A DNA stretch of 64,000 nt from Methanothrix sp. (GTDB lineage Archaea; Halobacteriota; Methanosarcinia; Methanotrichales; Methanotrichaceae): NCBI GenBank assembly GCA_025361645.1, contig JANYKI010000126.1, forward strand, positions 1-64,000. The letters run 5' to 3'. Shown in pieces: positions 36,990-40,740 of this stretch; the stretch's first letter is position 1, and the number at the start of each line of letters is the position of its first letter. Made by a program: the position numbers and the translations under genes. The notes under the pieces are model-generated. The model saw nothing but the letters and a program-made list of their open reading frames with translations, was not told the DNA's origin and did no database searches.

Positions 36990-38267
36990 CTAGCGCTTCA
37001 TCGAACCTTTTTCTGCAAAGTAGATATTTTTTTCATCAATTCCCAATTCCACGAATCTGCCGGTGGCCAGAATGCGATGGCTGTGTTTGAGCGGTGCCAC
37101 TCTTACGCCAGCGGATACCACTGATTCGGGTGGCAGAACGGCGTTCTCGCCGATAACGGCTATAAGGTTCTCTCCAATACCATTTTCTCCCCCCAAAATG
37201 CTATGCTCCTCGATGGTGGTGTGGCGGCCGACAATGGTACGGCGGATGCTCACCATGTGCTGGATATGGGCGAAGCTCATGATCATGCTCTCTTTGATTT
37301 CCACATCGCGGTCGATGAGGCTGGTATGGCCGATGTGAGAGTTCTCGATGGTCACGCCCTTTTCGATGTGGCAGTTTCTGCCGATGGAGACGTTGCCCAC
37401 AAGCTCTATATCGCCGGAGTCGAGGAAGGGCTCGATTCTGGCTAATGTGCTGGGATGAATCCATTGATTGGGCTTATAGTGGTACTTGCGGTCGAAATGA
37501 CGGACGGCTCCGGAGAGGCAGTCCATGGCCGCCTGGTGCAGTCGCTCCGGGGTGCCGATATCTATCCAGTAGCCTGTGATGGGGAAACCGTAAACAGGAT
37601 AGCCGTTCTCCGTTAAATAGGGGATCAGGTCGCCGCCGATGTCGCGGCCTTTATCTCCCATCCTGGCCAGAACCTCGCGAATCTGGGGCGAGAAGAGGTA
37701 GAAGGCGGTGTTAATCATGCGGCTGGGCTCGCTTCCCGCTTTCGGCTTTTCCACGAACCCCAAAATTCGCATATCATCGTCCACGCGGGCCACGCCGTAC
37801 TGGGAGACATTCTCCTCCGGTCCCAGCTCTTTGAGGGCCACGGTGAGCAGAGGCTTGTGCTTTCTATGAAACTCGACAAAGCTTGCCAGGTCGATGTCGA
37901 TGAGGTTGTCGCCCGAGACCACCAGCAGGTCATCGTCGATGTCGTAGTAGTTCATGCAATAGCGCAGGGAATCGGCGCTACCCGTGTCGTCATAGAGGGG
38001 CTGGTAGCTGAAGTCCTGGTGGTCGGTGATGCCCAGGCGCTTGAAGAAGCCTTCACCGGCTTTGAAGTAATTGCTCAGGTTGAGGGTGTTGCTGGCGCCC
38101 TTGCTGCCCAGGATGAATCGTCTGCAGCCTTGACTGGCTAAAACCCGGAAGAGATTGGCGATGATGGCAGTGTCGCATAGCTCCACCAGCGGCTTGGGCT
38201 GGTCTAAAGTAAGCGGATACAAACGGGTTCCTGAGCCGCCCACGGTGGCTAAGACCTGGGGAAACAT
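36990..38267 (-). CDS. NDP-sugar pyrophosphorylase (nucleotidyltransferase + left-handed beta-helix)
   Basis: GGSGTRLYPLTLDQPKPLVEL, DNLIDIDL, hexapeptide repeats HIEKGVTIENSHIG. Confidence 0.88.
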   Translation of the reverse strand: MFPQVLATVGGSGTRLYPLTLDQPKPLVELCDTAIIANLFRVLASQGCRRFILGSKGASNTLNLSNYFKAGEGFFKRLGITDHQDFSYQPLYDDTGSADSLRYCMNYYDIDDDLLVVSGDNLIDIDLASFVEFHRKHKPLLTVALKELGPEENVSQYGVARVDDDMRILGFVEKPKAGSEPSRMINTAFYLFSPQIREVLARMGDKGRDIGGDLIPYLTENGYPVYGFPITGYWIDIGTPERLHQAAMDCLSGAVRHFDRKYHYKPNQWIHPSTLARIEPFLDSGDIELVGNVSIGRNCHIEKGVTIENSHIGHTSLIDRDVEIKESMIMSFAHIQHMVSIRRTIVGRHTTIEEHSILGGENGIGENLIAVIGENAVLPPESVVSAGVRVAPLKHSHRILATGRFVELGIDEKNIYFAEKGSMKR

Positions 38268-38420: not shown

Positions 38421-38513
38421 CTAGTAGCCGCGCATGATCCTCATGATGATGCGGGCGATCATGAAGGCGAGGACGAATACGATGACGTAGAAGGCTATGC
38501 TCATTATGTCCAT
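38421..38513 (-). CDS. 30-aa single-TM mini-ORF (MDIMSIAFYVIVFVLAFMIARIIMRIMRGY)
   Basis: Read by eye, below ORF-track cutoff; TTTAAA-containing leader upstream. Confidence 0.5.
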   Translation of the reverse strand: MDIMSIAFYVIVFVLAFMIARIIMRIMRGY

Positions 38514-38554
38514 GAAAACATGTTAGTCATTTCTGGTTTAAAGATTTGACTGAA
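38511..38554 (-). repeat. Copy A of 44-bp imperfect direct repeat (includes start codon and leader of 30-aa ORF)
   Basis: CATGAAAACATGTTAGTCATTTCTGGTTTAAAGATTTGACTGAA; last 32 bp identical to copy B, 3 mismatches overall. Confidence 0.9.
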
Positions 38555-38722
38555 AACGTAGCCCCGGTTTTCATTTATCCCTGAGATCAGCGGCCCAGGC
38601 GCCCGCGCGCGAGGGCGGAGGCGAGCGCGTCCGGCGGTGCCCGCGAGGGGCGCGGGATGCGCGCCCTCATGCAGTCGGCGATACTCAAATCAATTTCTCG
38701 CAATGATTCAAGAGATACTTAT

Positions 38723-39199
38723 TCATGGGGGTCCAAGCAAACGTTTTCCGTTGAAATGAATTATGTGGGTGGGTGATTTCGCGATCCACACTTCAGTCTC
38801 CCAATCTATATTTGATATATATTTTGATAATGTATCGCTGTCCTGAAAGGCTGTTACGAAAATCAGCCCAATTCCCGGAGACATAAATAGATCATTCAGC
38901 TCATTATGCCTTTTGACATCAATTATCCCCGAGCTTGTGACCGCTTCGATCAAGAATATCCAGTTTCTATTCGAATCATGAACGATAACATCAGGAATCT
39001 TGCTCTGTTCATCGAGCACTATGCCCAGCTTTGATTTAAGATAGCCAATCGCTTCTTCTTTTCGCATAGGCCCGGTATCGTTTGCATGGAGAATCAATCC
39101 GTCCGGAACATATCGCGCACAGAATCCTTCTACGATATCTTTAATCAACTCGCTGGAAGCACCTGGTGCCATTTTCAATGCTCTCCCTGAGTGGCACAC
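38723..39199 (-). CDS. Orphan BsuBI/PstI-type restriction endonuclease C-terminal domain
   Basis: IPDVIVHDSNRNWIFLIEAVTSSGIID..KRHNEL...GLIFVTAF.D..TLSKYISNIDWETEVWIAKSPTHIIHFNGKRLLGPP; 158 aa, no N-terminal domain, no methyltransferase nearby. Confidence 0.7.
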   Translation of the reverse strand: MCHSGRALKMAPGASSELIKDIVEGFCARYVPDGLILHANDTGPMRKEEAIGYLKSKLGIVLDEQSKIPDVIVHDSNRNWIFLIEAVTSSGIIDVKRHNELNDLFMSPGIGLIFVTAFQDSDTLSKYISNIDWETEVWIAKSPTHIIHFNGKRLLGPP

Positions 39200-39219
39200 G
39201 TCCCATATCTCGTTCTATT

Positions 39220-39263
39220 CATGAGAGCATTTTAGTCATTTCTGGTTTAAAGATTTGACTGAA
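39220..39263 (-). repeat. Copy B of 44-bp imperfect direct repeat
   Basis: CATGAGAGCATTTTAGTCATTTCTGGTTTAAAGATTTGACTGAA. Confidence 0.9.
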
Positions 39264-39283
39264 GCGGGCGTGTAATAATAATC

Positions 39284-39325
39284 GAGTCCTCTGTGAGTCC
39301 TCCGTGCGCTCTGTGTCTGCGGTGG
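39284..39325. repeat. Degenerate CTCTGTG-type short tandem repeat
   Basis: cctctgtgagtcctccgtgcgctctgtgtctgcggtgg. Confidence 0.45.
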
Positions 39326-39334
39326 TGGTAGTAT

Positions 39335-39367
39335 CGTCAGCCAATTGGTTATAACCAGTGGCTGACG
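39335..39367. repeat. 33-bp near-perfect inverted repeat
   Basis: CGTCAGCCA-AT-TGGTTATAACCA-G-TGGCTGACG. Confidence 0.75.
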
Positions 39368-39570
39368 ACGTTTCAACCACCGGGAAACCCCGTATGAATT
39401 ACGATCACCCGAAAATTATCATAGTCAACTGGAAAACCATAGTAACCAGAGGTTAGCCTCTGAAAATAGCGAAATGCCGAATAGTTGCTGTGAGCGGGGC
39501 GAAAGCCTTCGATTCTCCAAAAGATTGATCTTCCAGAACCGCCCCTACATCTGAGAAATAGGTGCGAAGC

Positions 39571-40740
39571 ATGATTCATAACGAGGCCATAGAAAAGGCG
39601 AAGGAGCACTTCGCCAAGCTGCTGGTGGAGCAGCTTTTGCGCGTTGAGCAGATAAAGGCAGGCGAGGACTGGGTTGACTACAGCAAACTTCACCCCCTCA
39701 TCATCGGCGTGGTGGGCGGCGACGGCATCGGCCCCTACATCACAGAGCAGGCCGTGCGAGTCCTTAGCTACGTGCTGGCCGATGAGATTGCCGGAGGATT
39801 GGTGGAGCTGCGGGACATTCCCGGCCTGGACATCGAGTCGCGGGTAAAGGTCATGAAGGCTCTGCCCGAGGACGTTCTGGCGGCGCTAAAAGAGTGCCAC
39901 GTGATCTTGAAGGGCCCCCTTACTACTCCCAAGAAGGGTGATCGGTGGCCCAACCTGGAGAGCGCCAATGTCTCCATGCGTCGCGAGCTGGACCTCTTCG
40001 CCAACGTCCGGCCGGTCAAGGTGCCGGAGAAGGGCATCGACTGGATCTTTTACAGGGAGAACACCGAGGGCGAGTACGTCCTGGGCAGCAAGGGCATCAA
40101 TGTAACCGATGATCTGGCCGTGGACTTCAAGGTCATAACCACACCAGGGGTGGAGAGGATTGTGCGCCTGGCCTTTGAGTATGCCAGGAAGAACGGCATT
40201 AAAAGGGTCTCGGCGGTCACCAAGGCCAATGTCATCAAAGCCACGGACGGCAAATTCCTGGAGACGGCAAAGCGTGTGGCTAAGGAATATCCGGACATCG
40301 CATTTGATGACTGGTTTGTGGATATCATGGCAGCCAAGCTGGTGGACGAGAAGCGCAGGAAGGACTTCAAGGTCATAGTGCTGCCCAACCTCTACGGAGA
40401 CATCCTCACCGACGAAGCAGCCGAGTTTCAGGGAGGCGTGGGCACAGCGGGAAGCGCCAACATCGGAAAGCGCTATGCCATGTTCGAGGCCATCCACGGC
40501 TCGGCTCCGCGCATGGTAGAGGAAGGCAGAGCTGCTTATGCCGATCCGGCCAGCATGATGCGCGCCTGTGTCATGCTGCTGCGCCACATCGGCTTTGTGA
40601 ATCAGGCGGCCAAATTGGAGAATGCACTGGACGTCTGCGGCCAGTTGGAGAGGAAGGTTGTCCTTACCGGGCGAGCCGATGGGGCAACAGGTGCACAGTT
40701 TGCTGATTATGTGATGCAGACCCTGGGGGCAAAGCTTTAG
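39571..40740 (+). CDS. Isocitrate/isopropylmalate dehydrogenase family protein
   Basis: VVGGDGIGPYI, LKGPLTTPKKG, YRENTEGEYVLGSKG, HGSAPRMVEEGRAAYADPASMM. Confidence 0.85.
   Translation: MIHNEAIEKAKEHFAKLLVEQLLRVEQIKAGEDWVDYSKLHPLIIGVVGGDGIGPYITEQAVRVLSYVLADEIAGGLVELRDIPGLDIESRVKVMKALPEDVLAALKECHVILKGPLTTPKKGDRWPNLESANVSMRRELDLFANVRPVKVPEKGIDWIFYRENTEGEYVLGSKGINVTDDLAVDFKVITTPGVERIVRLAFEYARKNGIKRVSAVTKANVIKATDGKFLETAKRVAKEYPDIAFDDWFVDIMAAKLVDEKRRKDFKVIVLPNLYGDILTDEAAEFQGGVGTAGSANIGKRYAMFEAIHGSAPRMVEEGRAAYADPASMMRACVMLLRHIGFVNQAAKLENALDVCGQLERKVVLTGRADGATGAQFADYVMQTLGAKL

Follow-up and report, generated by a model that had tools for sequence, protein, structure and literature searches.

Type II restriction enzymes of the BsuBI/PstI/SdaI type combine a wHTH specificity domain (PF17728) with a catalytic domain (PF06616), and most of the full-length members compared here are 309–323 aa in length. 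A different kind of event, promoter capture, occurs when a promoterless gene becomes attached to a promoter of its host; literature searches covering promoter capture and the leaderless transcripts of Methanothrix yielded nothing that bears directly on the arrangement described here. Solitary, probably truncated restriction endonuclease genes constitute a known class (Ershova et al. 2012; PMC3488263). In this study, we analysed a 64-kb window, corresponding to contig C115 in the 2.43-Mb assembly of a methane-producing archaeon (Methanothrix, hereafter G000; completeness of 97%), and examined a lone PstI-type catalytic domain that lies next to a duplicated promoter. We consider it probable that a promoterless standalone nuclease gene entered beside a microprotein gene, that the promoter of the latter was duplicated, and that the copy now drives the nuclease.

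Results

A 55-bp direct repeat and its setting

The locus lies between a nucleotidyl transferase gene (36990–38267, minus strand) and an isocitrate/isopropylmalate dehydrogenase-like gene (icd-like; 39562–40740, plus strand). The first-pass annotation had described a 44-bp promoter-like duplication in this interval, and that duplication is real: the core copies at 38511–38554 and 39220–39263 share 41 of 44 bases with a 32-bp exact stretch, both contain TTTAAA, and each extends to a minus-strand ATG (at 38513 and 39222, respectively). The full extent of the repeat is greater, with 48 of 55 positions identical between 38500–38554 and 39209–39263. By bit score it ranks among the top three direct repeats in these 64 kb, and all other 55-bp ungapped stretches of the window score below 30/55 against it. 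With up to three mismatches allowed, a search of all 2.43 Mb of the genome returned the 32-bp core at these two places and nowhere else (a reversed-pattern control gave zero occurrences), and a dispersed repeat was therefore rejected as the identity of the 44-mer. The element that is dispersed is the adjoining sequence at 39272–39482, which lies outside the duplication, between the right copy and the icd-like gene, and has 39 matches in its own genome, its own copy counted. Related copies of this element are present in other Methanothrix genomes, one of them inverted beside the nuclease in the relative G021. A structured RNA of known type was also considered for the region and rejected, with no Rfam matches at E ≤ 1.

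The left copy belongs to a conserved microprotein gene

The ATG of the left copy opens an ORF of 30 codons (38421–38513, minus strand; MDIMSIAFYVIVFVLAFMIARIIMRIMRGY) that is absent from the ORF list and encodes a membrane microprotein conserved in 28 relatives (pooled pN/pS of 0.35). Such a gene is too short for the usual ORF-length cut-offs. The proteins of the 28 relatives mostly follow the pattern MDI..IAFYVILFLIAFMIARIIMKIMRGY (consensus MDIMSIAFYVILFLIAFMIARIIMKIMRGY), with several invariant positions and a C-terminal RGY in all of them; no Pfam family matched the microprotein, the best hit being a mechanosensitive-channel TM helix at E = 0.077. The microprotein gene is arguably of more interest than the repeat and the nuclease.

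The left copy (38500–38554, minus strand) contains a BRE-like CAAA, a TATA box TTTAAA at 38537–38542, the microprotein start codon and the ~5 codons at the head of the ORF. Relatives retain both this gene and its promoter; in most of them, the first T of the TATA-like box lies exactly 29 nt from the microprotein ATG although the sequence of the leader varies. The core promoter motif across relatives is TCAAATCTATAAACC or TCAAATCTTTAAACC, and its spacing lies within the ~26–30 nt from the start that is expected of an archaeal core promoter. In archaeal promoters, a TATA-to-ATG spacing of 29 nt predicts a leaderless transcript. The microprotein gene is thus apparently transcribed without a leader, and the left copy is, by its motif and conserved spacing, the native core promoter of this gene. 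A sigma-70 promoter scan of the region gave only background level, the model being of the bacterial type and irrelevant for an archaeon. Because the left ATG opens a conserved 30-aa gene, only the right copy is extra, and the description of the two copies as bracketing the nuclease no longer holds. Both copies have the box as TTTAAA, as do the relatives G021, G008 and G001, most other relatives having TATAAA, and the right copy is therefore of local origin.

The right copy and the nuclease leader

The right, derived copy (39209–39263, minus strand; TATA box TTTAAA at 39246–39251) retains the exact 29-nt spacing from TATA to ATG. Past the ATG, several codons of the microprotein can still be made out before the sequence joins the leader of the nuclease (39173–39204, minus strand). 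This leader is homologous to that of a standalone nuclease gene in the relative G019 and carries a degenerate Shine-Dalgarno sequence, CAGGGAGAGC, in place of the AGGAGGTG of G019. From its motif and spacing, we infer that the right copy is an active promoter from which nuclease transcription would start near 39222, giving a leader of ~50 nt. By inspection of the sequence, a possible leader ORF of 15 codons (39175–39222, minus strand) starts at the duplicated start codon, which is GTG in G021, and stops 2 nt upstream of the ATG of the nuclease; it may couple its translation to that of the nuclease.

The persistence of similarity past the ATG bears on how the repeat arose. A whole microprotein gene could first have been duplicated in tandem, with the nuclease later replacing the second ORF after codon ~5, and the ~4–5 microprotein codons within the right copy (48/55 identical; the G021 copy retains GTGGATAGAACGAG) are in line with such a course. 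However, tandem microprotein genes were found in no relative and two events are required, and we regard this history as possible but not probable.

The nuclease is a standalone catalytic domain

The gene behind the right copy (38723–39172, minus strand) encodes a single-domain BsuBI/PstI-type nuclease of the PD-(D/E)XK kind, which matches the PF06616 catalytic domain over profile positions 7–154 of 154 (E = 4.1e-45) and residues 170–320 of SdaI (2ixs; E = 2e-35). A fold search from an AlphaFold model also returned SdaI 2ixs (E = 2e-8); this model was built on four sequences and is of low confidence (pLDDT 59), and the predicted fold only backs what the sequence had already given. The likely start is the ATG at 39172, giving 149 aa rather than the 158-aa GTG form given previously; the protein then begins where the catalytic domain begins in its full-length relatives. 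Every column that is invariant in an alignment of 13 family members (PD...E...) is retained. The preferred reading takes the nuclease to be catalytically active.

The wHTH specificity domain is absent from the nuclease and from the genome, in a search in which the controls (G258 and an Acinetobacter plasmid) were positive. For a cognate N6-adenine methyltransferase, only a marginal match (E = 4.5e-4) was detected in G000, against 1e-70 to 1e-100 for the controls, and other Eco57I-type genes are present elsewhere in the genome. In an Anaerolineaceae MAG (L052, 2877–5456), a methyltransferase-wHTH protein shares its reading frame with a PstI-type catalytic domain. Only one in-frame TAA, placed exactly in the linker between the domains, separates the two, as in a fused restriction-modification protein that is split or interrupted by a stop. 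The nearest relatives of the window nuclease were found in Methanothrix MAGs, and a search for a viral source found no relative of it in IMG/VR contigs.

The dN/dS of the nuclease is 0.27 between G000 and G021 (Fisher p about 0.002–0.003), a comparison that covers evolution in the present locus, and 0.20 between G000 and G019 (p 1e-12), with an overall range given as 0.19–0.27. These ratios indicate that the nuclease is under purifying selection, although neighbouring genes, at 0.08–0.11, are under stronger selection than the nuclease between G000 and G021. It could be argued that the ORF is neutral restriction-modification debris and the promoter copy functionless: the wHTH domain and the methyltransferase are missing, the surrounding repeat-rich intergenic region turns over rapidly, and truncated genes are common among solitary restriction genes (99/272 in PMC3488263). 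However, the ORF is intact in three species, selection and the retention of the family-invariant residues speak for its maintenance, and the version in G019 begins with a strong Shine-Dalgarno sequence; we therefore find this explanation very doubtful. The loss of the specificity domain and the methyltransferase argues against ordinary restriction, just as selection argues against debris, and on this evidence the nuclease is more than debris. It is most likely a domesticated enzyme that would have lost its site specificity along with the wHTH domain; that it acts as a structure-specific or defence nuclease would be a guess.

Between the nuclease gene and the left copy lies a further 168 bp (38555–38722) of unmatched sequence, present only in G000 and G021. 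A GC-rich island within it (GC of 84% at 38600–38679), located 3' of the nuclease gene at window positions 38585–38665, is common only to G000 and G021. Searches of plasmids and of the own genome with the GC-rich spacer gave no informative match. A 31-bp match of the spacer in G001:C75 was taken as chance, the surrounding sequence being unrelated on inspection.

A second locus for the standalone gene

In G019, a standalone gene 68% identical to the nuclease lies behind nadX and is preceded by the strong Shine-Dalgarno sequence noted above. Together with the evidence for selection, this version shows that the term fragment, applied to the ORF by the first-pass annotation, undersells it. The homology between the G000 and G019 genes begins in the leader (~39204) and ends with the stop codon, and the two loci differ; because homology is limited to this stretch, the transferable unit looks promoterless. 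Synonymous divergence between G000 and G019 is 1.0 for the nuclease, 0.96 for nadX and 0.75 for the transferase, values that would fit a gene long present in the genus and relocated later, and would equally fit transfer. The corresponding nadX-flanking site of relatives holds other cargo or is empty. The site 3' of nadX (L040, 2317–3178, in G019; L121 in G020) has a DUF2281 (antitoxin-like) gene, accompanied in G020 by a gene that resembles a PemK/MazF toxin by eye; in G019 the standalone nuclease takes this place.

The locus in relatives

Matches to PF06616 of any kind were found in 4 of the 61 genomes searched. At this site G021 likewise carries the nuclease, flanked by the two repeat copies, with 94% identity, and the event is therefore older than the split between G000 and G021. 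G008, which the gene tree places no farther away than G021, the three genomes forming a three-way split there, is the closest genome with a single copy, and it lacks the nuclease. Very little sequence separates its promoter from the icd leader, and for this reason the empty site of G008 may be a secondary deletion. No second promoter copy was found in the relatives lacking the nuclease among those sampled, all of which agree with the single-copy empty site that had been proposed as a check; the presence of both copies in nuclease-free relatives, which would have spoken against a link between the two, was not seen. The nuclease and the second copy are found together in both G000 and G021, and the placement of a nuclease gene behind a copied promoter is thus well supported.

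In G021, the left copy combines a microprotein leader of the G024/G007 type with a TATA region of the G000 type. This mosaic suggests short-tract recombination between species, and since the leader is of another species' type, the locus has recombined. G021 also has ~1.1 kb of extra sequence between the right copy and icd (L039, 1965–2971). An Exo_endo_phos-family gene lies there together with a fragment from the C-terminus of a Schlafen group 3 helicase, which gives this intergenic region the look of a hot spot where defence-type cargo is inserted.

As an alternative, the nuclease could have been cargo of a mobile element, since decayed, whose attachment or target site was duplicated to give the direct repeats. 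The geometry is exact, with the right copy, an insert at 38555–39208 and a left copy that makes the target gene whole again, and the further insert of G021, with its Exo_endo_phos gene and Schlafen-helicase fragment, points the same way. However, the insert is only 654 bp long, its only ORF of note is the nuclease, neither an integrase nor a transposase was found in it, its ends have no inverted pair, and no relative of the nuclease was found in viral contigs. Thus, the earlier proposal of an insertion with target duplication agrees with the geometry, whereas terminal inverted repeats and a transposase are wanting and 55 bp is unusually long for a target duplication. We consider a decayed element unlikely.

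Discussion

The preferred course of events starts from a nuclease coding sequence with its ribosome-binding leader and no promoter, which would have entered upstream of the apparently leaderless microprotein gene. The same event would have duplicated the core promoter of that gene together with its first ~5 codons, such that the left copy would still drive the microprotein and the right copy would now drive the nuclease. An insertion with a 55-bp duplication, a tandem duplication with replacement and an attachment-site duplication are all compatible with the geometry; our preference is for a break at which a rearrangement or an insertion would have taken place, and we infer that the repeat came from insertion and not from tandem duplication.

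A broader and more tentative proposal is that the lone catalytic domain is a domesticated, expressed cellular or antiviral nuclease of one Methanothrix lineage. It would move between loci without a promoter and be expressed either through the duplicated leaderless promoter and a coupled leader peptide, as in G000 and G021, or possibly by read-through behind nadX, as in G019. We hold this to be conceivable rather than likely.

The donor promoter, the copied promoter, relatives with a single copy and a second locus of the gene are all visible in this one case, and the way in which an acquired gene without a promoter gains expression becomes directly testable. The case also raises the question of whether a restriction catalytic domain freed from its partners is tolerated as inactive, as structure-specific or under tight control.

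Compared with the known BsuBI/PstI/SdaI enzymes, the window nuclease shares the full-length catalytic domain and its invariant residues, but it is 149 aa long against 309–323 aa for most of the full-length relatives compared, it has no wHTH domain, and no cognate methyltransferase, linked or distant, was found for it. A transposon with a target-site duplication would leave flanking direct repeats and a single-copy empty site, both of which are found here (although the emptiness of G008 may be a deletion), whereas the terminal inverted repeats and transposase of such an element were not seen in the insert. As in promoter capture, a promoterless gene has apparently come under a host promoter; here, however, the donor promoter was copied and not taken, and the donor microprotein gene is intact. 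Like the solitary class, as far as it is described in the portion of PMC3488263 used here, the window nuclease lacks a linked methyltransferase and is >20% shorter than its homologues, but it differs from that description in its purifying selection, its standalone form at two loci and its locally duplicated promoter. What is new beyond the known solitary class is a selected standalone domain together with a locally copied leaderless promoter.
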